From positions 1-41,384 of the IMG/VR virus record IMGVR_UViG_3300010885_004342: a stretch of DNA of 41,384 nucleotides; one strand, 5' to 3'. The position numbers were made by a program, and so were the translations under genes. A model generated the notes under the pieces. It was not told where the DNA came from and made no database searches. It saw only the letters and a program-made list of their open reading frames with translations. Shown here piece after piece: positions 11,299 to 34,913 of the stretch; the stretch's first letter is position 1, and every line of letters begins with the position of its first letter. Source of the stretch: a virus.

Positions 11299-11319
11299 CC
11301 TATAACCCCTTGTTCTTAA

Positions 11320-11327
11320 TATTTATG
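11320..11327 (-). promoter_or_regulatory. T4-type late promoter CATAAATA
   Basis: CATAAATA on the minus strand matches NATAAATA exactly and lies in the 37-base gap before the gene starting at 11298. Such an 8-base element is read by the gp55-type late sigma factor, which is encoded at 40052-40876. Confidence 0.75.
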
Positions 11328-11335
11328 CTCGAAAC

Positions 11336-13588
11336 TTAAACACTACTAGCTGCACTACTGGTAAAAATCCAAGTATTGCTAGTAACTGTATAAATTTTCA
11401 AAGTTCTTGTGTTCTTTACTACTCCGTCGCCTGCATCGATGGTATTTGACGCTACAACATCCTGTACTACTGTATGACTATCTACGCCAATTGTAAATGT
11501 ATCATAGCTTTTAGTAAGGTTTGCAGTAGGATCTGTATCAGATATGGTAACAGGAATACTGTTATAACTCACTGTAGTAAATGTGCAATGTACTCGACAT
11601 ATTGTTCCTTCGTAATAGTCTTCAGCTGGATATACTTCTTGTATCAATGTAGCAATTTCACCGTTGTCTAGTGCGCCGCCGGTACTATCATTAATATTCA
11701 CTGATAGTCCTAAAGACCTAGATTGTATATAAGTCTCTAAAAATCCTTTGTTCACTGCATCGGCTGCATAAGCTGGATCACCAACATTACTGATAATCTT
11801 TCCGCTAACATTAACAGTATTAATACCAGCCGGTGCTAGTATTAAGTCTCCAGCAGCAGCTGAAATTGTATTACCTGTTATTGTAAAATTAGCAACAGTT
11901 AAATTGTTCAACGCACCTAGGCTGTTAATACCCGGAGCATTGGTAATATTAACTCCTAATGAATCTTCAGTTAGTACATCAACGCCGTCAATCTTGTATG
12001 TTTTTTCGGCTGCAAGATTAAAGTTTTCACTAGAATTCCAATATTGATTTACTGGATCTACTGCATTTCTCCAATTGAGCAGTTTGTCTGTTGTACCTTT
12101 AAGAGTAATGCCGCCACCGTCTGCTAATGTGTCCGAAGGTGATGTATTATCAGAAGGTTTAGCCAATTCAATATTTTTATCAGTGATAGCTAATGTTGAA
12201 GTGTATATAATAGTAGTGTCGCCGAGTACTGTTAAGTTTCCTCGAACCACTGCACTACCATTAACATCAAGTTCAGCAACTGGTGTTTCAGTTAAAATAC
12301 CAAATCTTGGTGATATTACTTTTCCAACAGTACCTTCTGTGCTTTGACTCTGGGTAGTATTGTTTGCAAAAGACACAGTTGTAGTTGTGCAATCTGTTAC
12401 TGTATAAGTTCCTCTATATCCTATTGGAATAATAAAGTTTATTTCAATTAAGTCGCCAATAGCAAATGGAGCAACAAGTTGTTCGTCAAAAGTAATTGTT
12501 GCTGTACTACCATCGCCTGTAGCATCAGTAGTAGTTATACTAAGTGATCCTGGATTGTATAATGTAAACCCTTTAAGTAACGTACCAGTACTTGGTTTTA
12601 GTTTTACTGAGAAATTTTGTCCTACATTATTTCCTCTAATATCAAAACTGTCACTGTCAACACGAATTTCATTATTTTGGCCTGGGCCAAGTATCAATGG
12701 AAAATCACTTTGTAAGGTTAAAGTTCCTTGATCAATTATGCTATCTCCAATTGTTTGAACAAAATTATCTGATGTCAATAGGATACTAACTTTTCCCGAA
12801 CCTGTTCCAGCGCCAGTGGCTGTAAAAGTTAATCCTAGAACATTGTCAGCTGCACCTATTGCTGTAAAGTCAGTAGTACCTAATGAAGTTATTAAATATT
12901 GAAATCCCTCAACAGTATCTATTGCATCAATTTCTGCAGGAGATTTTAGTTTATTTGTAACATCGACTTCAGCTTTAAATTGTAATGGCAATCCTGTGCT
13001 AGGGCTAATATAACTACTGATGTTAAATCCAGGAGAAATATTACCTGCAAAGTTTGTAATTGGTGCAAGAGGTGTAAATTCATCAAGTGAAAAAATTCCA
13101 AACAATGTTCCTGCAACCCACATTTCAGCTACAGTATGGGATTTGTTTAATGTATCTATAATATTACTGATTACAAATCCTGATGTATTCTGATCTTTTG
13201 TATAAACTGGTCCAGTTAAAATCCAAATGCTTCCATCATAGAATTTTAGCTGCTGTGTTTCGTTATTAATCCATAGGTCGCCTGCAACTGGATTTATTGG
13301 TGCTGTAGGTGTTACAATTGTACCGCCTGATACTTTAAAATCGTTACCATCATAAACTTTTAATCTATTCTGTGTAGTATCAAACCATAACTGTCCAGTG
13401 ACAGCATTTAAAGGTTTAGTTCCGTTGGCAAAGTTTTCTAATAGTTTAACAAAGTTTTCATTCATGAATTCTCCGTAACTAGAAGAATTCTTTCCTATAA
13501 GCGTTAAATCTGTAGCAGTCTGATCAACAGTACCGTCAATGACCTCAGTTAATACTGAACCATCTGTTTTGTTTATAATATAACTCAT
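11336..13588 (-). CDS. tail fibre-like protein 2, mosaic of phage modules
   Basis: A 750-residue fibre-like protein. Residues 1-130 share the N-terminal domain of the two neighbouring fibres (TLIGKNSSSYGEFMNENFV, LLENFANGTKPLN, GQLWFDTTQNRLKVYDG, GDLWINNETQQLKFYDG). Two modules common in phage structural proteins follow: about 226-266 (LITSLGTTDFTAIGAADN, then LTFTATGAGTGSGKV) and about 355-425 (TGDGSTATITFDEQ, then GYRGTYTVTDC). Residues 440-560 have a fibre shaft pattern (NGSAVVRGNLTVLGDTTI, ITDKNIELAKP). Its ATG overlaps the upstream stop by four bases. The shared N-terminus suggests the same attachment point on the tail as its paralogues; the receptor is unknown. Confidence 0.8.
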   Translation of the reverse strand: MSYIINKTDGSVLTEVIDGTVDQTATDLTLIGKNSSSYGEFMNENFVKLLENFANGTKPLNAVTGQLWFDTTQNRLKVYDGNDFKVSGGTIVTPTAPINPVAGDLWINNETQQLKFYDGSIWILTGPVYTKDQNTSGFVISNIIDTLNKSHTVAEMWVAGTLFGIFSLDEFTPLAPITNFAGNISPGFNISSYISPSTGLPLQFKAEVDVTNKLKSPAEIDAIDTVEGFQYLITSLGTTDFTAIGAADNVLGLTFTATGAGTGSGKVSILLTSDNFVQTIGDSIIDQGTLTLQSDFPLILGPGQNNEIRVDSDSFDIRGNNVGQNFSVKLKPSTGTLLKGFTLYNPGSLSITTTDATGDGSTATITFDEQLVAPFAIGDLIEINFIIPIGYRGTYTVTDCTTTTVSFANNTTQSQSTEGTVGKVISPRFGILTETPVAELDVNGSAVVRGNLTVLGDTTIIYTSTLAITDKNIELAKPSDNTSPSDTLADGGGITLKGTTDKLLNWRNAVDPVNQYWNSSENFNLAAEKTYKIDGVDVLTEDSLGVNITNAPGINSLGALNNLTVANFTITGNTISAAAGDLILAPAGINTVNVSGKIISNVGDPAYAADAVNKGFLETYIQSRSLGLSVNINDSTGGALDNGEIATLIQEVYPAEDYYEGTICRVHCTFTTVSYNSIPVTISDTDPTANLTKSYDTFTIGVDSHTVVQDVVASNTIDAGDGVVKNTRTLKIYTVTSNTWIFTSSAASSV

Positions 13589-15753
13589 GCCAATACACCT
13601 GTATAAATGATATAATTAATGGTCAAGTAAGGATTCATTGAATTAGCTGGTTGACCTACTAACGGTGCATCAATATTTCCGCTGTGCGGAAGATAATGTG
13701 CCTGGTTAGCTTGGCTAGCGCCAAGATCTAATCTTGCATCTAAGTCAGTTGGAGTACCAGTAGCATTTCTATAAGCGTAATACTGCTGACCTGCGGTTCC
13801 GTCAGCTCTTCTTCCTCGCATATTATGTCTATGGTCTGGAAGGTTGCTTACTGATAATGTAATTGTTTCTGATCCAGTTCCTGCGCCTAATGTATCTGCT
13901 GCAACGTCAGTTACTCTATCAGCTGGGCCGCCGCCGGCATCTGTATATACTGCTGTACCAGTGCCGTTAGCCTCAGCTTCACCCGAAGCTTTTGTTTTAA
14001 TTTGTAATGGAAGATTTGATGCGGAATCCGTATTCTCCATGTTGTCTTTGCCTAATGGGAATCGACCTCTCAAATCTGGTAATGCAAAAGACTGATATCC
14101 CTTTAACAGTGAAAAATCTCTATAGGTGTAACCAATAATTGCAAACAGTTCTCCGTAGGTGCTTCTTGGAACTTCTGCACCATCGCACAATAAAAATCCT
14201 TTTGGAACAACTGATCCAGCAAATGGCAAAATGCCGCCAACTGGAACTGTAGCAACTGAGCTAAAGAAAGTTTCTTTTGTTGTTTTTCTAATTCCAGTAC
14301 CTGGACGATAAATTAAAAACTGATCTGAATTTGTAGAATTTGTTATTTGTGTTTGTCTTGTAAAAAACGTTTCACTAATTACAGTATTAAAAGTGGCTGT
14401 TTGATTTTCTGTTACTCCGTTAAACACCAAAGGAGCTGCTGTAAGAACGTCTCCAGTAATATAAAATGAAGTTGAATCTAACAATTGTCTTGCATACTGT
14501 GAAGTAGTTCCAGAACCTAAAGAACCAGTAAAACTTCCAGTAAAATTACCAACAAAAGTTTTAGCATATACATTATTAAATTTCTTTGTTGAACTACCTA
14601 AATCATAAATGTCAGTAGTACTTGGTAACATTGCAACTAATGGAGTGGATCCTGTGCTGCTAGGAGTAATATTAATAGTCCCGTTAATAGTAGTATCACT
14701 GCCTACTATTAATTTTTTAGTAACTACTGCGCCGCCTGCTGTAACTAAACTTGCAGCATAAGATCCAACAGATCCAGATGCTTCTAATGTTCCAGTAATA
14801 GAAATTTTACCGTCTGTGGCTATATTTCCACTGACATCTAATGCTTCTGTTGGGTTAGTTTTATTAATACCAACAGTTTTTGTACTGTCTACTCTAATAA
14901 CTGTAGCAGTAGTTCCAGAATTATTAACATTTAAATCAATGCTTGATCCTGCAACTGAATTATAAATTACGCCAGCATTGCCATCAACTTGTAGAGATAA
15001 TCGTAAATCACTACCTACAGTTAAACCACCGTCATTTTTAACATAAAGATTATAGTTACTAGTACTTGTTTGATCGCCTCTTAAGAAATTTACAGAAGCA
15101 ACGTCAACGCCATTAACAATTAATGAATTAGCTTTATCAGCTGTTCCCCAAAATTTGTAAGTACTAGAAGAAGATAAAGTAACACCTTGCTTAATAGCTG
15201 TAAATCCAGATACTGTTCCCTTAGGAGTAAACGTACTTTTACTAAAAATTGCTATACGCTCGTTGGCTACATAGCAACTAAGAACTGAATATGGTACGTC
15301 TAATAAATCTGTAATAGTTTCAACTTCAAATCCAGTTTTTGATCCTGCGCTATATTGAGGACCAACTAAAATCCATGAAGAGCCTGTCCAGACTTTAAGT
15401 TGTTGATTTTCTGTATCAACCCATAGATCGCCAATTGTTTTATACACCGGAGCTGTAGCGTTTTTCTTAACACCACCAGTTTCTGTCCATACACTACCGT
15501 CCCATACTTGGAGCTGACTTACGCCTGGACTATTGTTAAACCATATCTGGCCTTCTACTGGATTTAATGGCTCTGTGCTATTAGCAAAATTTTCTAGTAG
15601 GTGTAAAAAGTTTTCTGCAATATACGCAGCATAACCTGCATAATTTTTACCAACAAATGTTAAACTAGTTTCTGTATTAAGTGATTGATCTTCAACAACT
15701 TTGGCAGTTTTTGTTGGATTATTAGTTTCTGTAAATCTAACTGTATAACTCAT
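13585..15753 (-). CDS. tail fibre-like protein 3 with phage tail-collar domain
   Basis: A 722-residue fibre-like protein. It has the shared N-terminal domain (SLTFVGKNYAGYAAYIAENF, HLLENFANSTEPLNPVEGQI, GDLWVDTENQQLKVW), then a shaft region with repeated strand motifs (LGSSTKKFNNVYAKTFVGNF). The C-terminal third carries a phage tail-collar domain (about 497-575): GGILPFAGSVVPKGFLLCDG, then LPDLRGRFPLGKDN. After it comes LSVSNLPDHRHNMRGRR, typical of the receptor-proximal end of short tail fibres such as T4 gp12 and similar proteins. It probably ends in the receptor-contact tip. The ribosome binding site AGGAG is 6 bases before the ATG. It is separated from the next upstream gene by one base. 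Confidence 0.9.
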   Translation of the reverse strand: MSYTVRFTETNNPTKTAKVVEDQSLNTETSLTFVGKNYAGYAAYIAENFLHLLENFANSTEPLNPVEGQIWFNNSPGVSQLQVWDGSVWTETGGVKKNATAPVYKTIGDLWVDTENQQLKVWTGSSWILVGPQYSAGSKTGFEVETITDLLDVPYSVLSCYVANERIAIFSKSTFTPKGTVSGFTAIKQGVTLSSSSTYKFWGTADKANSLIVNGVDVASVNFLRGDQTSTSNYNLYVKNDGGLTVGSDLRLSLQVDGNAGVIYNSVAGSSIDLNVNNSGTTATVIRVDSTKTVGINKTNPTEALDVSGNIATDGKISITGTLEASGSVGSYAASLVTAGGAVVTKKLIVGSDTTINGTINITPSSTGSTPLVAMLPSTTDIYDLGSSTKKFNNVYAKTFVGNFTGSFTGSLGSGTTSQYARQLLDSTSFYITGDVLTAAPLVFNGVTENQTATFNTVISETFFTRQTQITNSTNSDQFLIYRPGTGIRKTTKETFFSSVATVPVGGILPFAGSVVPKGFLLCDGAEVPRSTYGELFAIIGYTYRDFSLLKGYQSFALPDLRGRFPLGKDNMENTDSASNLPLQIKTKASGEAEANGTGTAVYTDAGGGPADRVTDVAADTLGAGTGSETITLSVSNLPDHRHNMRGRRADGTAGQQYYAYRNATGTPTDLDARLDLGASQANQAHYLPHSGNIDAPLVGQPANSMNPYLTINYIIYTGVLA

Positions 15754-17149: not shown

Positions 17150-20100
17150 TTATAGCTCCAAGGGGTTTCCGTTTTCGTCGGCTAAGATTTCGCCGTCCTG
17201 ATCAGTTATATTATTAATTAGTTCTAAATCAAATTTAATAAATTTAGAAATAGCATTGTTAGACTCTGCTAATGAAGATCCATTGTCTTCCCAAATTTTT
17301 CCAGTGCGTTTGATCACAGTAAGGGCAACATTTTCAGATATTAAATCAGTTAAATTGATAACATTTGACGAATTACTTACTGTAAAGTCAGCATCAAATG
17401 TTATATCCCCTTCAGGACTTTCATTATGCAGATAAGAATTATGTACTTCATAGGAATCTTTCTTTAATCGAATATTGCCAATAAAGAACTGCCAGCGAGG
17501 TTCTGCAATTCCAGTTATCTCGTCTACATATTCTAAATCTGCAAAGAACTCACTGCTAGTATGTGATGCTAGACACTTATAAGTATAACTTCCGTAGGTA
17601 ACGAGTTCGTTGACAAGATAAGTTATACCAGTTGCCCATGGTCCTTTAACTATCCAACCGCCAGCAAATACTTCTACTGCACTCTTTGGTAGTAATGCCG
17701 CATCTGTTGATGTTAAATTAGCACCCTTATATTTGTGTGCAGTAGTAAACCCGCCTGGGATTGCTGTCTCAAGAGTATAATTATAACTTGTGCCATCGGC
17801 AATTATCTGTTCAACTATTGTATCATCTTTATAAGGAATTGTTTCTGTTATTCCAATATCTTGAACAACTGTCCCGGCATTATATACTTCTCTAACACCA
17901 GTACCCAATGTACCTCTACGTAGTTGACTTAGTACGTTTCCAGTTTTTAAGAAATATTCAATACGTTCGCCTCGGATTTCAATAATCCCAGGAAGATTTA
18001 AATCTCTATTTGGCAGTGATACCACTCTGTCATCATTAATAACAATTTCAGTATCGTAAAAATGAAGATCATTTTTAAGAGTTGTCTGACGACTCTTTCT
18101 TAATCTCTTATAATGGAATCTGTTTAACATATCTTTAAATTGCATAAAGCTAAACGACTGTTGAACTACATTACTTCCAAATGTCATTACAGTGAATTTA
18201 TCTCCCTCAAGTGGTTCTTTAGCCAAGGTCACTGAAGACAAATTAGCATTTAATCTATAGTCAATACTAGATTGAAGTATGCGGCCATTCTTAATTAACC
18301 ATACTCTACTATCATTAACTACAGAACGATCAAGTTTAATTATTTTTCCAAAAGGTTGATGATAGGTATAGTACTCAAATGTATCTGGTGTTAATGTTGA
18401 ATTTACTAATACATTAATATCAGTTCTTTGAATTTCCATTGATTCGTGTTTATAAAAACTAATCACGTTAATTACAGTACCGTCTGCTGGCGCTTCAGCA
18501 AATGTAATTGAAGAACCGTCACATGTATATGTTGAATATCGATTTACACTGATAGTTAATTGATCGCCTTCGTACTCATGGTATGCACGATTTTTTAACT
18601 TTATTGAAATCTTTGATAAGTCAACTGTATAGTCAGATCCAATTTTTAACTTTTTATTATTAGCAAATACAGAAATTTGATTTACATCTGGTTCGTATGG
18701 TACAAATCTATTTTTAGGGATGTAGTATTCATACTGATCATTTTCAATAGTATAATATGTGCTAGTTGGTGATGTGTAGACTAGAGGTGCTGCATCATCT
18801 TCTGAAGAAGCATATACTAACATATTCTGTTCTAGCGGAAGAGAAGTTCCTACAACGTTTGATAGAAGATACGTTACACTATCTCCGTCAGCGGTAAATT
18901 TTTCAGATTTCATTAAGCTGAAGTTATCAACAGTAGACGATGCTAATACATAATTAATAATCGAATCTACTGGAGGTATAATTGCAAAGCGAATTCCAAC
19001 TAGTCCAACAATTTCGTAACTAGTGTCTGTTTCAAATAACTCATAGGAAACAGTTTCTCCGTTGAGATATATTAATCCGGATACTCCAGTTCCCCATGAT
19101 GCATTAGTTATGAATTCGTTACTAGTACCGTCAGATACAAAATAGTCTATTTCTAGTAAATTTGCTCCGCTGAATCCAAATGTAATTATTGAAATCATCG
19201 ATCCCACTGGTGGTTCAGTAATTAAAATCACTTGTTTATTTGCATAATCAACAGTAAAGTCTACATCAATAACCAATGGTTTAGGATCGTATCGAAGAGC
19301 ATTAGCTGTAGGCGTATCCTTTGCTGGACCTGAAACTAGAACCATTACTGCTTGTTTGTAGCTTAATGGTTGATCAAATGTAAAAGCAGTTGTAACACCG
19401 TCAAATACATAATTGTTATAATCAATATTTGCTGCACCGCTTGATGGTCTAGTTGTAACTTTAACTGCTACTGTGTCGACGATCTGTCCAGGAACAACTT
19501 CTTCTGGACCATGACTAGTGGTTGCATTAACAAACTCGTCACCGTCAATAATAATATCATCTGCTGCAAGACCAGTTGCTGTTGAATAAGCTAGGTTTCC
19601 GCCACTTAGCGAAGTATCATAATCAGTATCTTGTGGTTTAATTGACCCATCACTAGTTGACTTCCTAAAGATAAATGTATCGCCGGGATTAGGTGTTAAC
19701 AGTGTATCTGAAATAAGAATTTTCTTTGTAATTCCGTTACCAATAAATGTTGCAATGATCGTTGTAGTTGTAATTGGATTATCTGCATCGCCTGCATCTA
19801 ATGTTCCGTCAATTACATAAGCCGAATCACCACCTTCAATGATATCAAGGAAGTTTTCAGTTGAAGAAACTCCGCCGTCTTCAGTTATACTAACCGTTGT
19901 ATATGGAGTGCTGTCAATTCTAAAGAATCTTTCTGTACCAAATACTTTGTAGTAAACGTTAATTTCTTCTCCAACTGCTGGAGTGTACGGTAGCGTAAAT
20001 TCATAGTATCCGCTTACTGACTCGAGACCGCCAACTGTAATACTATAATCTTCATAAGTTGGATCTAGCGAGTCCCAAGCATCGGTAAACCAAGGAGTTG

Positions 20101-23100
20101 ATCCCCATCCTTGGGTTACTTCAAATCCTAGGCCTATTATCTGTACTCCGCCATAATCAACACCGTGCATTAATTGTGAAGTATCTTTTCCAATTTCTCC
20201 AGTAGCAGGATTGTAGTACCAATTAATTCTATCAGCAGCTGATAGGTAATTAAAATCTTTAATATAGGTAATTGTTACATCTACACCTTTATCTGGAGCA
20301 GTTTCTAATGTTAAAAGACCGTAATAACTAGTATATCCTCTTGTGACGGATTTTTTACTAGTCAAAGAATATGTGCCTTTAATTAATTCAATACCGTTAA
20401 CTGTAACAGTTGAGTTAAGAATATCTGTAGACGGACTCCATTTTAAATTAAATGTTTTTTGTGTAGCGGAAATCGTTGTAAACGTTTCTGTTTCTTGCAA
20501 TTTAGTAATATAATACTGTCCGCTTACTCTGTCAAATTTAATTTTTATGTAATTGGAACGAACAACACTGTCACCAATAGTTGCAATTGCTTTAGCAGCA
20601 ACACCGCCTTCTAAGGCCAAGCCGCCGTCTAAAGTTATTGTTGGAACGCTAAAATATCGTGAGCCAGGTGTTAGTAATACAATTCGATTTACTTTACCCT
20701 GAGAGATATAAGCCTTAGCGGTTGCACCAGTTCCGTATCCTCCGGTAATTCTAACTTCAGGAGCTTTTAAATATCCGCTGCCTCCGTCAATAATTGTAAT
20801 AGAAGTTAATTTAAATCCTGCATTGTCATACCAATTGCGCCAAGGATACTCATACACATCATCAAGATTAGTTAAAATTTCACCATCGACTAATGCTGTT
20901 TCAATTGGCATTAAAATATTATTTAGATAGGTGGTTTGTAAATCAAAGTCAGTGACCATATTGTATGCAGGATCTAACTTATCGTAAGAACTAACAAATT
21001 CTCTTATTTTTGTTCGATATGGCTTGACTTCGGTTACATACGATTCAAAATCTGACAAATTATCATTGTTATATGTTATTTTTTGTTTTAATTGTCCAAC
21101 ATTATGCTGTGCTCTCACAAAACTAGTTTTAAAGATCCAATCAATAAATGTTTGTTCTGAGAACGCATAGCGAACACACGCAAAAAATGCATCTAAGTAA
21201 TCTTGTTTTAAATCATCAATTAAAATTTTATTTCTTAGAGCAGTGAGAATAATTCTTACTTCTATAGCTGCGGTGTTATCATAAATGTCGCCGTCAAATA
21301 AAGGACCATCAAAACCTAAATTACTATTAAAGAAATTGTAAAGATTATCTTTAATTTGTATTGTTCCGTTTTCACGACCTATTACTTTATAAGATTGTGT
21401 ATAGTCAACTGAATTAACATCGGCATATTTTTCTAATAATAACCATCCTCCAGTTCCAACTGAGTTAACTTTAATAACTTGACCAATCTGTGTAGTAAGA
21501 GCTGGCAATTGATACGTTGCATCTACAGTAAAATCAATTAAGGTAAACTGATTATATCCAGACGCATACCAATTAGTATAACTCCAATATTTTCTTACAT
21601 CGTAGTTTTGAGATCTAACTCTTGACCATGCTCTTGTCACTGTGTCATAGGCGTATATACTCCATTGTCCAAGAGCATCTGTATCTGCTTTTACTAGCGC
21701 AGAGAAAGTTCTAATTGATAAAACAGTCGTAGACTCGTTATATCCTTCTCCGCTATTAAGTATAGTTGCACCTACAATTTGTCCGTTGTCGTTTAGTTTA
21801 GCTCTTAATTTTGCGCCAATGCCGGAACCAGTGACTGTAATATAAGGTGCATTAATATATCCTTGTCCAGACGTAACCACTGTTACAGAAGTAATACGTC
21901 CATTTTCAATAGTTGGTGTTAACTCGGCTGTTCTAAAAGTACTAGTACCAATAAATCTTAATTCAGCATCTGTATCAACTACTGTATCGTATAAGCCAGT
22001 AACTGTGCTTGGTTCGACTTCGTATTGGTCCAAATCAGAGATATCTCGATCTTCAACAATTGTATACTTAATCAACACCGAATTAATTCTTTCAATATAT
22101 TGTTTCAGTGCTTCAATTCGATTTATAAACATGCTTTGTCGAGGTCTATTTTCAATACCATATCGCATTTTTGGCGGTAATGAAAAATCTGGCACTACTC
22201 TACTGTTGCTGTCTTTACCACAAAGGCTATCAATCAACTTTTCTTCTATGCTAATTGGAAGGCTACTGTTAGGATCGTTGCTAATGATCTTCCATTGGCT
22301 ATGAGAATTGATACTGTAATCGTCTACAATCCAATATTCAATAGCTAGATTAATATCTGAATGTATTAAACTTTGTGAGATATTTGCTAGACTAAAACTA
22401 TTAGTACCAGTGAAGGCAATAAACTGTAGTCCTTGTCCTTTAGGATCTGCTATTAAGTCAGCAACATTTTTAGCAGAAAGATATCTATCAGTTACATTTG
22501 GCACAATAGTTTTATTCTTGACCCAGAAATAATATGTATTTTTAAAAGTCTTTGATACATTATCATATCGTCTCTTGATACTGTAAACACTATCGCCGTA
22601 CAAACTAATACCACTTATGTTAGAAGCTAATCCAGTTTCTGTATCAGCTAACTTATCCCAAGCACTTGGTAGAACAGATGATTCTACCCATTCATAGATA
22701 TCAATGCTAGCAGTGTCATATAATTTGTTCCATGTAGTGTTTCTATAAACTACATCTCCGTTATTGTAGTCAAGAAATTTTGCTCTACTCATATCCCACC
22801 ACAACATGCCTACTTTTTTATCAGTCCATGCCATGCCGTCATCTACATTAACTGAATCTGTTCCTACAGTATATGTTGCTGGGTCGTAGAATGTCTTAAA
22901 TTTAATTTCTTGTTCTGCAATACCGGCAATGTTACCTTGAAGCGGATCAATAATATCTAAGTAGGTCACAATTGTATTTGTTTTCTTATTATATAAAAAT
23001 ACTTTTTTAATTTTTTCTAAATTAACGACTGGTAGTTGTTCATGAGATCTAGTCCAAGAATATGCATTTGATTTTTTCTCAAAGGAATATACTTTTCCTG

Positions 23101-26100
23101 AAATAATACTTTGATCAACTGCGTTTGGAGCTGAGACAACAACTGTATTTTTCTTAACTGCAAATCCTGTACCAAAGCCGGCTTGAGGAATATCAAATGA
23201 TGCTAGGCTTTCAGAGAATACCCATTTAGAGTAGTACTTGTCATAAACATCTACTCTGCCAGAATCAATAACTTTGTCAAGAACCTTTAATGTATCTCCG
23301 TCAAATGTTGTTGGCAATCCTGACGGTGTTGAATATCCTACCTGATCAACGTCAAATGTTAAAATGTTAGAATTATCTCCGTTGACACTAAAAATTACCA
23401 GGGTGTCATCATTGTTCATAAAGGAAATTTTAGTTCCAAATTGTTCTGATATTTCCGGAATACGGCTCTTTAAAGTTTGATATGGGGTTGTTGAAAATAC
23501 TCCATTAGTTTGTTTAAAAACTTTAACAATACCTTGATCAGTAAATGTATCATCAGCATATCGACTGCTTACAGCAAGATAATGACCGTCACTAGATAAA
23601 GAAATACTTGAACCAAACTGTTCTGTATCATTAAGATCTAAACCTGTTAATGTCTGCGTTAAGCTATATGCGCTATTTGATAAAGAGTAAATGTATGTTG
23701 CACCAGTATCAAGCGATAGTGTAGAAGTATCTTTAGTTGGTGCTGATATTGCTAGATAAGTCCCGTCTGACGATGCTGTAACATCGTGACCGTATCTATC
23801 GTTAGCGGCAGAGCCAACAAGTACAATACTATTCATCGACCACTGATCTACTCCGTTAACTGTAGTGTAATCAAATTGATATACTCTACCTTTACTGCTG
23901 TCGTGCCCAGTTGCTGACACAAACATAGTAGTATTGGTGGAGAATACAATCTTTGAGCCAAACAATTCAGTAGTTGATAATGACGATTGAGTTGGAGAAA
24001 CAATATATGATTGTAAAATAAACTCGCCGGCAGCATTTTTCTTATAAAGAGTAATCATACCTTGTGAAGTGTAAGAACTTGCTACTCCGTTAACTGATGC
24101 CTTTATCGAAGGAGCAGGTCCCCAGAATGTTGAATTACTTGCTGGATTAGTGTTTACTGGAATTGTGCGCAATGCTATGTAGTAATTTCCATTATAACGA
24201 ACAACATCGTTTATCACATAAGTTGTCGTAGAATTACTCCATGTTCCTTTATATTGTGTCTTAACACTTGATGCAGTTGGTGTTCCTATTATTAACCAAG
24301 ATCCGTCTGGACTAAACTCTAATGATTCTCCAAATGCGCCTAGAGAGACAGTTGCTACATCAAGTAAAGTAACAGTTTGTTTTTGAACCCAATTAGCAGA
24401 GGCTGTAGCTTTTTCAAAAATTACAATTTGATTTCTAGTATTTGCAACTGCGGCTGTTAATGCTGATGCAGTTACCGCTATAGTTTTACCGAACGCTAAA
24501 CCAGCTGATGGTTTAGGATTTCTAATAATTTTTTCAGTATAGACATTACTATGGGCATAAACACTCCATTTGCCAGTGCCATTATCATCTACCCATATCA
24601 CTTCGTCTGTTTTTAATCTATTAGGAATTATTGAACTAATATTATCAATATGACTAGCACGTTGTGTAGTAATTTTAAATATCAATAATACACCAGGATC
24701 AACTGTATTTGGATCTGGAAAATCTTTAAATTCTTTATTAATTGTAATTGTAGTTAAATTAACAGATGAGACTTTATGAAACCCTTGAATACTTGTCTCG
24801 TGTAAAATTCCAATAATGTCGTTTGCTGATATGTTAGGAATTATATCTGTAGTCAATGTTAAAACTTTAGTTGTCTTATTATATGAAACAGTTTGAATAT
24901 TAAAAATAGATTTTGTTAGTCTGTAGATATTCCAGTCACGGCCTTCAAACGCACAGTGAATATACGATCCTTCTGAGAATTGCGTAATATCTTTAGAAAT
25001 AATTTCATCTAAAGTATCAATATTAATATCTACTTCATCTGTTTTTACATACCCGGGAGTTCGTAGATAAGGAGTAAAATTCTCGTTAACTGGCCACGGA
25101 GCAGAATTATAATTTAAAGGTTTTAGATAAACGTCATTAGGTGTTTGACGCACAACAAAATCAACACTATTGTTGATAGTTGATGAAACTAATTCGTACG
25201 GCTGAGGATTTAATTTAAACAAACTATCGTTTAATTCAAACTCAATTTGTTCAAATGCTTTTGAACTTCCGTATTGGCCAACACGAACTGCCCACTCTTC
25301 AAAGAACTTAATACTTTCTTTATTATCAGCACTTAGTACATCAAATAATTTGTTAAGAACATTCTGCGTACCCTTTTCAATAATCATACCTTGATAGAAT
25401 TTATATTCTGAAATATCGTCTTGAATGATATTCTCAAGGTACTGACGTTTCTGATAACCAATTAAATGCTGGGCCATTCTTTGTTGGCCAACATCAAAGT
25501 TGTCACTATCTAGGCTGTAGAAATCTTCAAATTGTGCTGCCTTGTAACTCCAATTTGGTATCATTCTTGAAGTAGGTTTTTCTTTTAATTTAATCCAATC
25601 GTTAGAATCAAATTCAAGTACGCCTGGTAAGAAGGCATTGGCACTATAATAAAATTCTTTGTATCTTACAACATCACCAAGATTGTAGTCAGTCCATGCC
25701 GCCCAATTTTTTATTAGAGCTTGGTCATATATAAATCCTGGAATGTCGAATCCGCCTTTCCAATTTGTAGAAATATATCCTGAAACTTTGATTTTTTCTT
25801 GACGATATCCAGTTGTTTGTTCGTAGATTGTATCATTAAACAATGTAGTGTTATCTATCAATAATATGTGTTCTTTTTGTACAAGATAGAAAGTAGCTCC
25901 ATAAATTCCTTCTGTGTTTGCTACAGTATATTCAATTGTATTATCATCTCTAAAAGAATTAATAAATTCAGGTTCTAATTTTTCGCCGTCTGCTTTAAAA
26001 AATTCATAACCGTTAAATTGATCGCGAATATCTTCTAAAACACAGTAAGGTAAATTTGCAATTAGACTTGTAGCCGCAGGACTTAATGCAATAACACTAG

Positions 26101-29100
26101 CGCCAATAGTCGAAAGCTCACCTAATTTATTGTACTGTTCTTCATTAAAAAACACCCCAGAGTTGATATTGTTTTTTACAACATAATAATCGCCGTTGTA
26201 CTGAAGTACTTCACCGCTAACATAATCTTGATTTTCTAACCAATCTGTCCACTTTGTTTCACCTGAGCTCCAGTTTTGTGTAGTCCAGAATAAAAATTCT
26301 TTAGCAGCAGTACGCCAGTCTGTTATTGTTGAAAGGTTATTGTTAAACTCGTCAAATTTAAACCCTTGATCTTTTAAGTATTCACCGTAACCCACTAAGA
26401 AATCAACAACTTCTTGTATTGTTCTAAATTTAGATCCGTAAGCAACTGTGATTAATTCTGTCTTATCCCATCCAGTTCTAATATAAGCATCTCGGCCACC
26501 GACGATAGGAAGTGCTGGTAACTTTTGATAAAAAGTAGAATCAAATGATGACGAAGTAGTATGAGTAACTGTTACTCGATAATATCCACTGTTATATTTT
26601 ACTAGCTTGCCGGAAACATATTGTTGACCAGATTCCCATTCTGAATATGTTTCACTTATTCCGCCAACATTAACTAGATATCCCGCTTGTATCCAAGGGT
26701 AGTAATAGAAATAAGGAGAATTTTTACTATAACCTTTTACTTCATAACCAGTTGATAGTTTAGTAATAATTACACCGCTATATACTAACTTTTTCACCGG
26801 TGAGCTAGTGTTCAATACAATTGAGTAGTTTTCTTGAGGTACAAATACACCTCCAGAGGCTGTTGGATTTTTAGAATCAAGTATTAGATTAAATTTTTCT
26901 TTTTCAGTGAATCCGCCAATTCTGTAGGCTAGTTGTAGGTTTAAATTTTGTAAGTCGTATTTGTATTGTGTAAGTGATTTTAAATTGTCACTCTGAATAT
27001 AGTCAATTAAGTAATTTACAAGACCCGATGTTTGTACTCTAGTATCATCAGAATAAATGTTAGGTAGTACTGCATCTGCTAAACGGAATCTAACTTTTGT
27101 ATCTTTATAAACAATCTGACCAGAAAGATCTCTATAAATTCTTGAACGATCAAATATTCTTCCTACTATAGCTGAAGGGTAAGTTAATAGTAAAGTAGAA
27201 ATTACTGCAAATGGGAAGTACGAACTTCTTCTCCATGCGGCTTCTACTGGGCTTCCGTCACCAAATACAAAATCTCCTCTAGAACTAGGAGTAATTAGGC
27301 CGTCGGCAACATTTGATTCAATTGGAGTTCTTAATAGTCCATCACTGGTAACTGGAATACAGCCTAACAAAAATGGTCTTAAATATTTTGTATTTCTAAA
27401 AATTGGTGCATTTGGATCTCTAACTACACCTTCACTAATATCTTGCCACATTACTAGATTATCACTAGTATATGGTGCTGGTCCGTACTGCTCTTCCCAC
27501 CATGCAGGCATGATGCTAAATCCTAACATTTCCCAAGGACATAGATGAGGTCTATCAGTATCATATATCCACTTGTATATTGCTCTCCAATAGCCCGGAG
27601 TTTCTCTACCATCAGGTGCAGTATGACCTGTATAGTTATATGTAAATGGATCTAGTTTATTGTAGGTCAGCGGTTTAGTAAAATCTCTATCAACTAAATT
27701 AGTCCATTGATAAAAATTTGGTGATAAGATTTCGTTAAATTCTTGTAATGAATATTCACTATTAGAAACGTAGCGAGGAATGTAGTCGTTAATATCAAAT
27801 AAACTAGTGTCGTAGTTAAATTTAATATTGTTAAAAATTCTTAATTCTAATTCTAATAATAATTCGTCTCTGTAATCTGGTGTGCCACCTTCGTCGTATG
27901 TGCCATAAGCTAGTACATGACTGCCGTCGTGTCCTTGGATCATCCAACGACCATTAGGAATGTTTACAGTTGTATCAAGATAAATTTTAGGTTGATACTT
28001 TGGCCATAATCCTAATTTTGTAGGTGTAGAGGGAATAAAACATCCGTCTGTTGTTTCGTATTCAACAATAGTAATTGTATCGTCATTAGCTAGGTTGGAA
28101 TAGTTAATAATAGCAAATCCGTTACCATCAAATGTATAATCAATGCCATAACTTAATTGTAAACCGTTAACATAAATTAGCACCGCTTTTGGACTTAATT
28201 CTCCGATATTAAAATTACTTGATAATGGATAATACTTTGTTCGATAATCAACAACAGTAATGTTAGTTGTTACTGCTGCTCCATAGGGAACCATATCGCT
28301 AAAATAATACGGGAATGTTTTTGGTTTATTCTTATTAATTTCATTAAGGATTGCATCAACAAATTCAACTGTATCAACATCAATGCCTAATGTTTCTGCT
28401 GTTAAAATAAATTGTCTTTTAAACTTTCCGTAGTCATTTTGCGATTGTGTCAATGCTTTAATAAAGTTGTTATCTTTAGAAGTTAAATGATATAATGCTA
28501 ACGGCAATGCACCGCTATGTTGAACAAATTTTGTTCCGTATGGATTAACATTGCCAAGATCTCTAATATTACTTGTGCCTGGGAAATCCCCAGAGAACAA
28601 AGATAAATTATCAATTATTGAATCAACATGATCTACTACTTCACCTAATGTAAATTGAGATACTTCGTTGTTTAATGGATTATTTTGAAGATTTAACGGT
28701 ATTTCATAATACCCAACACTATTTTTAGATTGTCGCGCAAACGATTTGATGGTTAGTACATCAGTTTCAGTAATATCATTAACTAGTGTAACTACCTTGT
28801 AAAGATTGCCATCAGCTACTGACCACAATGACTTATCTAAACGGCGGCCGTTGACATACACTCGAACAACTAAATCACTAAGATCTGTTATATCATCGTA
28901 TACGTCAATGTTAAAATTGTTTGTCTTATTTGAACCTCTATAAATTCTTATGATTGGTTGGTAATTTTCAACTTTACTAATTTCCCAAGCATTAGTATAT
29001 GCTACACTTGAGATTCCGTTAGACTTAATTAATGATCCTGTATTAACAGAAATTGTATTAACATCGTAGATAGTTTTATAAGTGAATGTATCTGATAACA

Positions 29101-30955
29101 GATTAAAATTAAAAAGAATATCTCCTACATTATTGATATTCTTGTAATCAAGAGCAAATCCTAATTCCGAGTCTGCGCTGCCATCGCCAATAGAATAAGA
29201 AAATAATTTAGTCCCAGCGAAAGTTGAGCCTTCATAAACTGTTTTGTCTCCAAAACTATTAAATGTATCATCAACTAAATCAAATAAAGGAGTTTGATTG
29301 TTAGTTGTTTTTGTTTGTCCTAGCAGCCATTCGCTGCCGTTATACCAATACATTAAACCTTGTTTTAGTCTTCCGTATTTTATTAGTGCAGTTTGATGTT
29401 CAACTGGAGTAGATTCTTCTACTAAATGAATCTGGCGTTGACGACTCTCGCCTGGCGGAGTTACTTCGACAAATTCAACTCTATATATTTTGTTTCGAAC
29501 ACGAATATCGGTGTCAGCAGCAAATGCTACACGATGACCGTTTACTAACGAAACTGCATCAATAGCATAGCTAAGTTGACCTTCTACCTCACTAAATGCA
29601 TCAGTTGTAACTGTATCAAGTAAATCAATATCAACTATAGCTTCTAATCCAAAATTAAATAATTTTAATCCAGCTTCAAATTCTATGATTGGTCGAATTG
29701 CACGGGCTGTTTGATCTAAGCTGGCTATTTCTCCGTTTAAAGTTGCACTAGTTTCTATAACATCCTTATGGAACCAACGATTATATCGACTCCACGGATT
29801 GCGATCTTTGCTGGCACGATTAATAACAATGTAATCATTGTTCTTAGGATACGAACTAGCTACTTCAAATGAATTGCTTTCAAAAGGAGTGTCATCAAAT
29901 AAGATTTCAACTGTACTAGAAAAATTGCTAATAATTTCAAGATCTCTCTCAGCAATAAGAGAAATTGCAGAACCAACACCCTCGACATAAAAATAATCAT
30001 TGGCATATTTAGAGGGTGTAACTTCACCTCTAAATTTTACTTTCATACCGTTAGATAAAGAAATTCCATTACCTAATTTATAACTTTTTTTACCAATTAT
30101 TTCTAACTCAACATCAATTTCAGTATTATCTTTTATGTCATAAATTTTAAAAATATTACCAATGTTTGCATCATTTTCACTAACATAGTAAAGCAAGTTT
30201 GGAGCATCATCAGGCACAGTGAAAGTTAAAGTTCCACTTTCTATTGCATACGCAGTATCTGGTCCCCAAGTATATCGTTGGTCTGGCCCTTCAACTTTCT
30301 GTGTCTTGATACTAAACGGTTCTCCAAGGCTATTAATATCAAAGTGATATGTTTGTCCTCTGTATAATTTAATTACAGGATTACGTGTAAGCCCGTTTGG
30401 AGTAAACAAATATTCTTTACTATTGCCCTGATCTTCTATAGTTACAGTATATGTACTAGAAATAGCTCTTTCTTGTCCGTAAACTTCAATGGGTCTAGGA
30501 CCGTAAGGTAGCCAATAGTATTGCTGGAAGTTAACAAACTTATCCCAATCAATATGAGGGTTCCAAGAATAAAATTCTTGACGGTTTAGTCTTTCATGGT
30601 TATCTACCTTTGCACCAAACACACCTAGCTGATTAATATAGTCAATGTAATCTTTATAAAATTCTACGTTTCCTAAATCGTCACTGACTACTAGGCCGGG
30701 CTCTAGTTGATAATTTTTTCTAGTGTCGTCAACAGTTGATATAAAAATATCTTTAGAAGTTGAGGACTTTGCATTTTGGCGCCCAATATAACCGTTGATC
30801 TTTTTAACAACTCCGGGTTGTGTTAATTGATCAATAGTTGCTTGAATAAATTTTTTATTACTATCAGTTCTATAAAATCTAGGGATTAGATCAGAATTTC
30901 GTCTCTTCTGGTCTCCGCCTTTGTATGGAACTGGATTTTCTTTCTGGTTCGCCAT
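17150..30955 (-). CDS. giant 4601-residue tail/baseplate structural protein
   Basis: An uninterrupted 13.8-kb gene, about a third of the window. Its ATG follows the gp6 stop directly (TAAATG), with GGAG upstream inside gp6, so it is in the baseplate operon at the place of T4 gene 7. T4 gp7 is only about 1030 residues, and I cannot show homology. Visible parts: an N-terminal region rich in W, Y and P (about 1-170); core segments such as HLCPWEMLGFSIMPAWWEEQ near residue 1140; five chitin-binding-like modules anchored by W1440, W1572, W1754, W2239 and W4440; a seven-repeat FG-GAP-like propeller (F2155 to about 2630); two pairs of GGxGY-type repeats (around Y3033 and Y3395); many VNGxxL-x(2)-DYT fibre repeats in the last 1100 residues; and a segment near 4290-4360 (FYDTEIVINDD, then GIIEIRGERIEYF) frequent in phage structural proteins. 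A virion role is near certain; polysaccharide contact is inference. Confidence 0.95.
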   Translation of the reverse strand: MANQKENPVPYKGGDQKRRNSDLIPRFYRTDSNKKFIQATIDQLTQPGVVKKINGYIGRQNAKSSTSKDIFISTVDDTRKNYQLEPGLVVSDDLGNVEFYKDYIDYINQLGVFGAKVDNHERLNRQEFYSWNPHIDWDKFVNFQQYYWLPYGPRPIEVYGQERAISSTYTVTIEDQGNSKEYLFTPNGLTRNPVIKLYRGQTYHFDINSLGEPFSIKTQKVEGPDQRYTWGPDTAYAIESGTLTFTVPDDAPNLLYYVSENDANIGNIFKIYDIKDNTEIDVELEIIGKKSYKLGNGISLSNGMKVKFRGEVTPSKYANDYFYVEGVGSAISLIAERDLEIISNFSSTVEILFDDTPFESNSFEVASSYPKNNDYIVINRASKDRNPWSRYNRWFHKDVIETSATLNGEIASLDQTARAIRPIIEFEAGLKLFNFGLEAIVDIDLLDTVTTDAFSEVEGQLSYAIDAVSLVNGHRVAFAADTDIRVRNKIYRVEFVEVTPPGESRQRQIHLVEESTPVEHQTALIKYGRLKQGLMYWYNGSEWLLGQTKTTNNQTPLFDLVDDTFNSFGDKTVYEGSTFAGTKLFSYSIGDGSADSELGFALDYKNINNVGDILFNFNLLSDTFTYKTIYDVNTISVNTGSLIKSNGISSVAYTNAWEISKVENYQPIIRIYRGSNKTNNFNIDVYDDITDLSDLVVRVYVNGRRLDKSLWSVADGNLYKVVTLVNDITETDVLTIKSFARQSKNSVGYYEIPLNLQNNPLNNEVSQFTLGEVVDHVDSIIDNLSLFSGDFPGTSNIRDLGNVNPYGTKFVQHSGALPLALYHLTSKDNNFIKALTQSQNDYGKFKRQFILTAETLGIDVDTVEFVDAILNEINKNKPKTFPYYFSDMVPYGAAVTTNITVVDYRTKYYPLSSNFNIGELSPKAVLIYVNGLQLSYGIDYTFDGNGFAIINYSNLANDDTITIVEYETTDGCFIPSTPTKLGLWPKYQPKIYLDTTVNIPNGRWMIQGHDGSHVLAYGTYDEGGTPDYRDELLLELELRIFNNIKFNYDTSLFDINDYIPRYVSNSEYSLQEFNEILSPNFYQWTNLVDRDFTKPLTYNKLDPFTYNYTGHTAPDGRETPGYWRAIYKWIYDTDRPHLCPWEMLGFSIMPAWWEEQYGPAPYTSDNLVMWQDISEGVVRDPNAPIFRNTKYLRPFLLGCIPVTSDGLLRTPIESNVADGLITPSSRGDFVFGDGSPVEAAWRRSSYFPFAVISTLLLTYPSAIVGRIFDRSRIYRDLSGQIVYKDTKVRFRLADAVLPNIYSDDTRVQTSGLVNYLIDYIQSDNLKSLTQYKYDLQNLNLQLAYRIGGFTEKEKFNLILDSKNPTASGGVFVPQENYSIVLNTSSPVKKLVYSGVIITKLSTGYEVKGYSKNSPYFYYYPWIQAGYLVNVGGISETYSEWESGQQYVSGKLVKYNSGYYRVTVTHTTSSSFDSTFYQKLPALPIVGGRDAYIRTGWDKTELITVAYGSKFRTIQEVVDFLVGYGEYLKDQGFKFDEFNNNLSTITDWRTAAKEFLFWTTQNWSSGETKWTDWLENQDYVSGEVLQYNGDYYVVKNNINSGVFFNEEQYNKLGELSTIGASVIALSPAATSLIANLPYCVLEDIRDQFNGYEFFKADGEKLEPEFINSFRDDNTIEYTVANTEGIYGATFYLVQKEHILLIDNTTLFNDTIYEQTTGYRQEKIKVSGYISTNWKGGFDIPGFIYDQALIKNWAAWTDYNLGDVVRYKEFYYSANAFLPGVLEFDSNDWIKLKEKPTSRMIPNWSYKAAQFEDFYSLDSDNFDVGQQRMAQHLIGYQKRQYLENIIQDDISEYKFYQGMIIEKGTQNVLNKLFDVLSADNKESIKFFEEWAVRVGQYGSSKAFEQIEFELNDSLFKLNPQPYELVSSTINNSVDFVVRQTPNDVYLKPLNYNSAPWPVNENFTPYLRTPGYVKTDEVDINIDTLDEIISKDITQFSEGSYIHCAFEGRDWNIYRLTKSIFNIQTVSYNKTTKVLTLTTDIIPNISANDIIGILHETSIQGFHKVSSVNLTTITINKEFKDFPDPNTVDPGVLLIFKITTQRASHIDNISSIIPNRLKTDEVIWVDDNGTGKWSVYAHSNVYTEKIIRNPKPSAGLAFGKTIAVTASALTAAVANTRNQIVIFEKATASANWVQKQTVTLLDVATVSLGAFGESLEFSPDGSWLIIGTPTASSVKTQYKGTWSNSTTTYVINDVVRYNGNYYIALRTIPVNTNPASNSTFWGPAPSIKASVNGVASSYTSQGMITLYKKNAAGEFILQSYIVSPTQSSLSTTELFGSKIVFSTNTTMFVSATGHDSSKGRVYQFDYTTVNGVDQWSMNSIVLVGSAANDRYGHDVTASSDGTYLAISAPTKDTSTLSLDTGATYIYSLSNSAYSLTQTLTGLDLNDTEQFGSSISLSSDGHYLAVSSRYADDTFTDQGIVKVFKQTNGVFSTTPYQTLKSRIPEISEQFGTKISFMNNDDTLVIFSVNGDNSNILTFDVDQVGYSTPSGLPTTFDGDTLKVLDKVIDSGRVDVYDKYYSKWVFSESLASFDIPQAGFGTGFAVKKNTVVVSAPNAVDQSIISGKVYSFEKKSNAYSWTRSHEQLPVVNLEKIKKVFLYNKKTNTIVTYLDIIDPLQGNIAGIAEQEIKFKTFYDPATYTVGTDSVNVDDGMAWTDKKVGMLWWDMSRAKFLDYNNGDVVYRNTTWNKLYDTASIDIYEWVESSVLPSAWDKLADTETGLASNISGISLYGDSVYSIKRRYDNVSKTFKNTYYFWVKNKTIVPNVTDRYLSAKNVADLIADPKGQGLQFIAFTGTNSFSLANISQSLIHSDINLAIEYWIVDDYSINSHSQWKIISNDPNSSLPISIEEKLIDSLCGKDSNSRVVPDFSLPPKMRYGIENRPRQSMFINRIEALKQYIERINSVLIKYTIVEDRDISDLDQYEVEPSTVTGLYDTVVDTDAELRFIGTSTFRTAELTPTIENGRITSVTVVTSGQGYINAPYITVTGSGIGAKLRAKLNDNGQIVGATILNSGEGYNESTTVLSIRTFSALVKADTDALGQWSIYAYDTVTRAWSRVRSQNYDVRKYWSYTNWYASGYNQFTLIDFTVDATYQLPALTTQIGQVIKVNSVGTGGWLLLEKYADVNSVDYTQSYKVIGRENGTIQIKDNLYNFFNSNLGFDGPLFDGDIYDNTAAIEVRIILTALRNKILIDDLKQDYLDAFFACVRYAFSEQTFIDWIFKTSFVRAQHNVGQLKQKITYNNDNLSDFESYVTEVKPYRTKIREFVSSYDKLDPAYNMVTDFDLQTTYLNNILMPIETALVDGEILTNLDDVYEYPWRNWYDNAGFKLTSITIIDGGSGYLKAPEVRITGGYGTGATAKAYISQGKVNRIVLLTPGSRYFSVPTITLDGGLALEGGVAAKAIATIGDSVVRSNYIKIKFDRVSGQYYITKLQETETFTTISATQKTFNLKWSPSTDILNSTVTVNGIELIKGTYSLTSKKSVTRGYTSYYGLLTLETAPDKGVDVTITYIKDFNYLSAADRINWYYNPATGEIGKDTSQLMHGVDYGGVQIIGLGFEVTQGWGSTPWFTDAWDSLDPTYEDYSITVGGLESVSGYYEFTLPYTPAVGEEINVYYKVFGTERFFRIDSTPYTTVSITEDGGVSSTENFLDIIEGGDSAYVIDGTLDAGDADNPITTTTIIATFIGNGITKKILISDTLLTPNPGDTFIFRKSTSDGSIKPQDTDYDTSLSGGNLAYSTATGLAADDIIIDGDEFVNATTSHGPEEVVPGQIVDTVAVKVTTRPSSGAANIDYNNYVFDGVTTAFTFDQPLSYKQAVMVLVSGPAKDTPTANALRYDPKPLVIDVDFTVDYANKQVILITEPPVGSMISIITFGFSGANLLEIDYFVSDGTSNEFITNASWGTGVSGLIYLNGETVSYELFETDTSYEIVGLVGIRFAIIPPVDSIINYVLASSTVDNFSLMKSEKFTADGDSVTYLLSNVVGTSLPLEQNMLVYASSEDDAAPLVYTSPTSTYYTIENDQYEYYIPKNRFVPYEPDVNQISVFANNKKLKIGSDYTVDLSKISIKLKNRAYHEYEGDQLTISVNRYSTYTCDGSSITFAEAPADGTVINVISFYKHESMEIQRTDINVLVNSTLTPDTFEYYTYHQPFGKIIKLDRSVVNDSRVWLIKNGRILQSSIDYRLNANLSSVTLAKEPLEGDKFTVMTFGSNVVQQSFSFMQFKDMLNRFHYKRLRKSRQTTLKNDLHFYDTEIVINDDRVVSLPNRDLNLPGIIEIRGERIEYFLKTGNVLSQLRRGTLGTGVREVYNAGTVVQDIGITETIPYKDDTIVEQIIADGTSYNYTLETAIPGGFTTAHKYKGANLTSTDAALLPKSAVEVFAGGWIVKGPWATGITYLVNELVTYGSYTYKCLASHTSSEFFADLEYVDEITGIAEPRWQFFIGNIRLKKDSYEVHNSYLHNESPEGDITFDADFTVSNSSNVINLTDLISENVALTVIKRTGKIWEDNGSSLAESNNAISKFIKFDLELINNITDQDGEILADENGNPLEL
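23020..24500 (-). other. FG-GAP-like beta-propeller region in the giant protein
   Basis: Seven copies of an FG- or YG-led strand motif occur at residues 2155, 2208, 2332, 2388, 2447, 2506 and 2594. Examples are FGESLEFSPDGSWLIIGTP, YGHDVTASSDGTYLAISAP and FGSSISLSSDGHYLAVSSR; most are followed by a GxVYxF-type strand. This is the pattern of FG-GAP/integrin-alpha-type blades and the count of seven fits a closed propeller. The interval between blades two and three is about 70 residues longer and holds a chitin-binding-like module (W2239). Confidence 0.7.
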
Positions 30956-34466: not shown

Positions 34467-34913
34467 TTATTGTGCAAGCAGTCCATTCTTTTGATCAAAT
34501 GTCAACTGCATACTCTGACTAATGTTATACGGCAAATATGTTAAAATACATTCAATTTGAATACCTGATTCGTATGCAGTAACTATAACTTGATCTACTT
34601 TTACTCTAGGATCATAGTTAATAATATCTGTGACATTTTTAGTAATCACTTGCTTAATATCTTCAGTTAACGGTTCAAATAATATATCCCAAATAATTGT
34701 GCCAAACTCTGGATTCATTAGACGTTCGCCCTGACGGACATGGAAATGATTTAATATATCTTGTTTAATTAATTCTAAATCATACAGGCTAAAATTTTCA
34801 GTACTTTGATTTATTGTACTAAAACCTTTGTATGTTTTACTTCTAGGAACATCGGTATTTCTTATAGGAGGGGTTAATACAATTTTGTCGTATAAATTAG
34901 AGTTTGTAGTCAT
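34467..34913 (-). CDS. 25: baseplate wedge protein gp25
   Basis: A 148-residue member of the GPW/gp25 family, the small lysozyme-like fold that anchors sheath initiation and wedge core in T4, Mu-type tails and type VI secretion. The family signature is clear: LIKQDILNHFHVRQGERLMN then PEFGTIIWDILFEPL (about 48-83), with a C-terminal beta hairpin. T4 gp25 is 132 residues. The start shares one base with the gp5 stop (TAATG). No lytic activity is implied by the family name. Confidence 0.95.
   Translation of the reverse strand: MTTNSNLYDKIVLTPPIRNTDVPRSKTYKGFSTINQSTENFSLYDLELIKQDILNHFHVRQGERLMNPEFGTIIWDILFEPLTEDIKQVITKNVTDIINYDPRVKVDQVIVTAYESGIQIECILTYLPYNISQSMQLTFDQKNGLLAQ

Follow-up and report, generated by a model that had tools for sequence, protein, structure and literature searches.

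In T4 the slot directly after gene 6 of the baseplate operon is taken by gene 7, in P2 the corresponding slot is taken by gene I, and in the stretch of DNA analysed here (one IMG/VR contig of 41,384 bases, hereafter the window) it is taken by a gene encoding a chain of 4601 residues. This raises the question of whether the giant protein is the counterpart of gp7 and gpI or another structural protein that occupies their place.

The baseplate operon of the window is of the T4 type, and the giant gene stands where T4 gene 7 belongs. Upstream of the giant gene, in transcription order, lie the genes for a phrog_12050 virion protein, gp53, an 805-aa phrog_11190 hub-like protein, gp5, gp25 and gp6, and downstream lie genes for a 245-aa and then a 202-aa protein, followed by three tail-fibre genes. 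The giant gene abuts both of its neighbours: its first base adjoins the gp6 stop, and its last base adjoins the next start codon. The gp6-type protein, besides its PHROG matches, showed a weak match to T4 gp6 21-111. A gp55-type late sigma factor is encoded at 40052-40876, divergent from the baseplate operon. The three consecutive fibre-like proteins (722, 750 and 501 aa; 9793-15753, minus strand) have in common an N-terminal domain of ~90 residues (phrog_14394/15511), which may be a shared baseplate attachment domain, and the first of them carries a Pfam tail-collar domain.

Several other genes of the window were noted in passing. Just downstream of the fibres are two look-alike gene pairs (3959-5940 and 6528-8199, minus strand), of which the 355/304-aa pair has a common 'DIxxxSYxExNAEKNYxxL' and the 279/280-aa pair resembles glycosyltransferases by eye; neither gave a Pfam match at E 0.01, and they are possibly sugar-modifying genes. 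At 84-1277 (plus strand) is a putative metallopeptidase plus VWA-like protein (Pfam DUF2201_N, DUF2201), for which the PHROGs label 'HNH endonuclease' (phrog_1314) is apparently wrong, and at 3315-3998 (plus strand) a flavin-dependent thymidylate synthase ThyX (Pfam Thy1, 2.9e-45).

ORF calling in the window placed the giant gene on the minus strand as a single open frame from ATG to TAA. The uninterrupted 13.8-kb frame described in an earlier note on this DNA was thus recovered with the same coordinates and length, and we add the strand, which had been left unstated. The plus strand of this interval is closed by hundreds of stops, and the remaining two frames on the coding strand contain 341 and 639 stops. 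The GC content is 43/38/21% over the three codon positions, with GC3 at 0.19-0.25 in each of ten consecutive blocks across the gene. These data indicate that the frame is beyond chance, and the uniform GC3 gives no sign of joined separate genes. No tandem repeats or ambiguous bases were found in the giant gene, no phage record with DNA nearly identical to the window was found, and Rfam and tRNA scans of the window gave no matches. The encoded protein has a calculated mass of 516.7 kDa (~517) and a calculated pI of 4.8.

Because the window phage is represented by a single contig, we considered whether the frame is an assembly artefact joining separate genes, the finding that the earlier note said would overturn its reading, or whether the chain is cleaved into several virion proteins. 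Collinear single-frame orthologs directly after gp6 were found in jumbo phages and in dozens of IMG/VR contigs, and their presence in many independent records rules out an assembly artefact; a chimera of several genes was rejected on the same ground together with the uniform GC3. The published peptides of orthologs are assigned to whole genes and decide neither way on cleavage. Taken as one, artefact or cleavage is scarcely credible.

The family of the giant protein was then delimited. It matches PHROG 10938 ('virion structural protein') with 1083.5 bits in 4 stretches, a family that holds PA5oct gp355, RaK2 ORF070, 121Q gp582, CBB_236, the Atu_ph07 structural protein and phAPEC6 gp245. tblastn with the giant protein returned collinear relatives in 72 phage records, all below 60% identity and mostly at 24-29%, and an N-terminal query reached a coverage of up to 93% at 25-29% identity. 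The relatives include Atu_ph07, Phosso, PA5oct, SCTP-2 and RaK2-like phages, the last of which infect Klebsiella, Escherichia, Salmonella, Erwinia, Pectobacterium, Cronobacter and Xanthomonas. A scan of IMG/VR with the giant family yielded at least 598 matching stretches. The window protein is collinear with those of the PHROG 10938 phages at 25-30% identity, across much of its first 2,000 residues and then once more at ~2640-3400, and has in common with them the single open frame and the place directly after gp6; in every annotated relative examined, the giant ortholog directly follows the gene at the gp6 place. The giant belongs to an already known family, whose giant tail-baseplate proteins occur in many jumbo phages.

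The size of the protein, which had been put forward as its novelty, turned out to be ordinary for this family. Orthologs measure 3857 aa in PA5oct, 4449 in Atu_ph07, 3326 in RaK2, 3340 in CBB and 3323 in 121Q, and those of RaK2, CBB, 121Q, XacN1 and RAS14 together span 3138-3340 aa. In our fetched set, where PA5oct and Atu_ph07 are included, the shortest of the 36 complete orthologs has 3857 aa and the longest 5229, with a median of 4786; a further 16 frames are longer than 4601 aa although they are incomplete, the longest reaching 5343. Since relatives are equally long or longer, 4601 aa is an average size, also within the metagenomic group to which the window belongs, and cyanophage S-MbCM6 encodes a 7022-aa protein directly after its gp6. 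Compared to the RaK2/CBB/121Q types, the giant is ~1,300 residues longer, mainly in the variable region 2000-2600 and in the C-terminal part. Two neighbouring genes in relatives also drew attention. The annotated ORF 141 of Salicola phage SCTP-2, at the gp6 place, has 9,291 bases (3,096 aa), ~3 times the usual gp6 of the group, and the expansion may affect gp6 as well; phage 121Q has a 'group I intron-associated' ORF (2586-3350 in its locus) between the baseplate-operon genes for gp25 and gp6.

Members of the family are present in virions. Mass spectrometry of phAPEC6 virions identified gp245 (381.88 kDa, 17 unique peptides, 7.6% coverage), which directly follows gp244, a 'baseplate wedge' (PMC7247149), and from its mass and place we took gp245 to be an ortholog (compare the 3323 aa of 121Q gp582). 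In the accessible part of the CBB paper, CBB_236 is listed in virions (21 peptides, 7.72% coverage), and the T4 homologs named there are gp6, gp25 and gp53, with gp7 absent (PMC5259590). The CBB record shows CBB_236 following CBB_237, a baseplate wedge, and the record of PA5oct gp355 carries the note 'ESI-MS/MS'. The proposal of a structural protein in the wedge operon at the gp7 position is thus supported, as regards both the virion presence of orthologs and the slot shared with T4 gene 7 and P2 gene I.

Table 1. Features of the giant gene and of its two upstream wedge genes in the window (residues are those of the giant protein).
Feature	Position in window	Strand	Basis
Giant virion structural protein, 4601 aa, PHROG 10938	17150..30955	-	ORF, phrog_10938
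Residues 20-60, LP motif (P25 invariant) then predicted helix	30776..30898	-	conservation + model
Residues 160-280, cupredoxin-like beta-sandwich ('YHYH'-type)	30116..30478	-	AlphaFold2 pLDDT about 75-90
Residues 1121-1180, best-conserved stretch of family ('PWEMLGFSIMPAWW')	27416..27595	-	alignment
Residues 1437-1477, CBM5/12-like motif	26525..26647	-	pattern
Residues 1569-1608, CBM5/12-like module	26132..26251	-	pattern + model
Residues 1751-1789, CBM5/12-like module, small beta module in model	25589..25705	-	pattern + model
Residues 1785-1900, family-wide KGT element	25256..25603	-	F1853-x-x-G1856...K1861-G1862-T1863...E1887-W1888
Residues 2238-2280, CBM5/12-like motif in variable region	24116..24244	-	pattern only
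Residues ~2180-2580, FG-GAP repeats, inferred boundaries	23216..24418	-	Pfam FG-GAP_2
Residues 3014-3092, G-S-G-Y repeat	21680..21916	-	shared with cyanophage structural proteins
Residues 3383-3444, second G-S-G-Y repeat	20624..20809	-	profile + pattern
Residues 3600-4601, less conserved C-terminal part, VNG-type hairpins	17153..20158	-	alignment + pattern
gp6-type baseplate wedge protein, 1154 aa	30956..34420	-	phrog_10646 2e-298, phrog_219 6e-13
gp25-type sheath initiator/wedge subunit	34467..34913	-	phrog_261 1.8e-20, phrog_43 2.4e-17

The chain is a mosaic of conserved and variable regions (Table 1). Residues 1-2000 and ~2600-3600 are conserved in the family, and residues 2000-2600 and 3600-4601 are variable and contain most of the length changes; within the conserved part, residues 1121-1160 show 53% identity to the window across 11 remote jumbo phages. 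AlphaFold2 modelled residues 1-1200 with a mean pLDDT of 80.3. The best structural match of the cupredoxin-like region had a Z of 10.9 (2.5 A over 100 residues), and the region is also similar to the C-terminus of cyanophage gp9. Copper ligands are not conserved in residues 161-280, where a single His occurs and both Cys and Met are absent; the likeness is one of fold only, and the region is unlikely to bind copper. Foldseek against BFVD found the same architecture in further phage proteins, that of Atu_ph07 among them. Pfam CBM_5_12 (PF02839) matched four stretches of the giant at 47.7 bits against a cut-off of 26.2, and patterns suggest five CBM5/12-like sites; one CBM5/12 motif lies at 4440-4467 in the C-terminal part, and 45 residues of the 1569-1608 model superpose at 1.2 A on chitin-binding domains. 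Pfam FG-GAP_2 matched three stretches above its cut-off (39.3 bits, best at 2432-2477) in a region that varies between relatives and that, judged by these repeats, is a probable beta-propeller. In one aligned relative, a Pfam Gp18_dom_I (tail sheath domain I) match of 2.7e-4 lies within the 1480-2180 region, possibly a domain borrowed from the sheath protein.

Two other roles were considered. PHROGs files phrog_10938 under 'head and packaging' and part of the giant resembles phrog_460 'head closure Hc2', which would fit a head or neck structural protein. However, the overlap with phrog_460 consists of the G-S-G-Y repeat, a repeat that several families of baseplate wedge proteins have too, and the gene is in the baseplate operon in every relative seen, making a head or neck role very improbable. 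A tape-measure protein was rejected, as the gene is in the wrong place and the models contain no very long helices.

We next compared the giant with known gp7 and gpI proteins. Neither whole-length nor windowed profile comparison of T4 gp7 (33 gp7 sequences) with the giant gave a significant match, and the gp7-type hit that had been expected at the N-terminus was not obtained. At E<=10, phrog_964 (T4-type gp7) matched neither the window nor any of the complete relatives, with its controls matching in T4 and in the S-MbCM6 giant (E 5e-6), and no gp7-family match was found elsewhere in the complete relatives while the same controls matched. Tail_P2_I (PF09684) had no credible match in the window and relatives; phrog_17744 matched nothing at all, and no conclusion is drawn from it. 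When solved structures were searched by sequence, the single protein and two profiles alike returned only weak CBM-type matches. In structure comparison (Foldseek/VIA), the lists were filled by single domains of the CBM, cupredoxin-like and small beta kinds; gp7 relatives were absent from them, which counts neither for nor against a gp7 fold. Profile comparison is not very sensitive here, since the T4 gp6 positive control itself matched weakly.

Below the significance level, the comparisons converged on one motif. The giant reads FYQGMIIEKGT at residues 1853-1863 followed by EEW at 1886-1888. The form FYxGxI..KG[TS] is present in 84 of the 88 family sequences, and XacN1 and RAS14, the two most remote phages, have the related form FWxxMI..KG[TS]...EFW. 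P2 gpI carries LLP at residues 6-8, KGT in its core and EWW after the KGT. Since the P2 gpI homologs in IMG/VR are all nearly identical and therefore unusable as a profile, the gpI profile was built from six diverse phage sequences, and it was run, together with a T4 plus cyanophage gp7 profile, against a diverse alignment of residues 1-2200 that included 13 jumbo phages. The windows with the KGT element came first for both the P2-gpI profile (20.5, against 15.7 at the next place and 14.0 for the reversed control) and the gp7 profile (17.7, against 14.9 and 13.3), in each case below significance, and the two profiles met the element in one and the same KGT register. When an alignment of full length but lower diversity was used, the KGT element again came first for the gp7 probe, whereas the gpI probe preferred other windows; the hhalign probability at the motif stayed <7%. 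The first half of gpI gave no signal at the LP/helix segment of the giant, and the assignment of residues 20-60 to the first half of a gp7/gpI core is proposed from position and pattern only. Residues 1823-1897 had a pLDDT below 50 when modelled alone though they are among the better conserved parts, which would fit an element that needs gp6 in order to fold, though a low pLDDT can also arise for other reasons. Descent from gp7, or equivalence to it, is thus weakly supported: a significant profile match was not found, and concordant sub-threshold signals at one motif were.

The lack of a significant gp7/gpI match anywhere in the giant, together with a chain made mostly of fibre- or adhesin-type modules (CBM5/12, cupredoxin-like, FG-GAP, G-S-G-Y), would also be expected if the giant were a peripheral, fibre-anchoring baseplate protein unrelated to gp7 and a different, small protein supplied the gp7 core, a kind of module that is short and may be too divergent for profiles. 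However, the giant gene always adjoins gp6, the KGT element is the top spot for both probes with the diverse alignment, and in the relatives that were searched nothing else passed the threshold as a gp7/gpI candidate. We consider such a peripheral protein unlikely.

A further suggestion had been that the giant has taken over the functions of several T4 proteins, that is, of gp7, gp8, gp9, gp10 and gp11 in one chain. The chain is long enough for this, no gp10 match was found in the window, and no convincing T4-type gp8 was found in the window or in nine complete relatives, where the sole gp8 match covers 28 residues in Atu_ph07 (E 0.008). Inside the giant, however, no gp8-11 family was recognised except the widespread G-S-G-Y repeat, fibres are encoded by separate genes in the window, and PA5oct keeps its T4-gp10-like C-terminal domain in the separate downstream gene gp358. 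To our knowledge, the simple baseplates of P2 and XM1 are without gp8-11 altogether, so the absence of these proteins needs no replacement. The takeover is therefore not supported, and we regard such a fusion as quite improbable.

On balance, the giant is probably a gp7/gpI-type wedge subunit (BW3) of a T4-related, jumbo-type myophage. Its gene is directly after the gp6/gpJ wedge gene and ahead of the fibres, as is the gene for BW3, and the gp7 role is supported by this gene order, the conservation of the motif, the two probes at sub-significance and the finding of no other gp7 in complete relatives. About even in our judgement are the chances that a gp7/gpI core has been split by an insertion of ~1,500-1,800 residues, such that one chain of 3,100 to more than 5,300 residues makes up the wedge core and the whole rim.

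In known contractile tails, each wedge consists of one BW3 chain and two gp6-type chains, and receptor-binding proteins or fibres attach to BW3 in T4, A511, pyocin and P2 (PMC10811340). In the gp7 ortholog of XM1, loop 80-106 of the core domain and the C-terminus each hold one set of tail spikes (PMC10457771). The giant has very large additions at the corresponding two kinds of position, inside the proposed core and after it, and on this basis a rim-building and fibre-anchoring function is proposed. In the arrangement that we infer, which covers the pairing with gp6, the division of the core, the attachment of fibres, the number of copies and the contact with the surface, a short helical core of the giant would pair with a gp6 dimer to form the wedge core bundle. 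The halves of this core would be the LP motif and helix at ~20-60 and the KGT half at ~1785-1900, with ~1,700 residues of globular domains between them and a further ~2,700 residues, with the propeller, the repeats and domains of a variable, adhesin-like kind, after the KGT half. The internal insert and the C-terminal part would make up the rim of the baseplate and hold in place the fibres whose genes lie just downstream, residues 3600-4601 would form a peripheral arm, and the long extra domains would probably touch the host surface, where the carbohydrate-binding modules, if they do bind sugar, may aid in holding on. A virion would be expected to contain six copies of the giant.

Like T4 gp7, P2 gpI and XM1 gp17, the giant is encoded after gp6/gpJ, and with P2 gpI it shares a KGT motif followed by an acidic-Trp pair and an LP near the start; the proposed attachment of fibres would be a likeness to all three. 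In contrast, the giant is 4-26 times longer than these proteins, its core, if it is one, is split by ~1,700 residues, and its sequence gives no significant match to theirs. The cyanophage giants that follow gp6 (phrog_701, phrog_2885, phrog_19630 and the S-MbCM6 protein) resemble it in the place of the chain and in both G-S-G-Y repeats, which are common to many cyanophage baseplate proteins, whereas their core sequences are unmatched: segment HMMs of the window protein were significant against the 7022-aa S-MbCM6 protein only in these repeats. Residues 698-725 of that protein match T4 gp7 731-758 ('FYSTKG...LFKxLY', E 5e-6), and, as far as this sequence match goes, it shows that giants placed after gp6 can carry gp7 sequence. 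The S-MbCM6 protein (2093-23161 in its locus), annotated as a structural protein only, looks like a giant gp7 ortholog, and since its gp7 KGT motif lies ~700 residues into the chain, this protein may have a split core too. If the split-core reading holds, the same expansion would have taken place in parallel in the cyanophage giants.

The PHROG 10938 family and the virion presence of its members were already known; what the present analysis adds is a likely equivalence to gp7/gpI, in which the core may be split. The giants of this family rank with the largest proteins of phages and occur widely, yet they are labelled only 'virion structural protein'. If they are gp7 counterparts, residues 20-60 and 1785-1900 are the place of interest for the wedge role, and the giants would explain why RaK2-like jumbo phages seem to be without gp7 and illustrate how a wedge core can accommodate thousands of additional residues.
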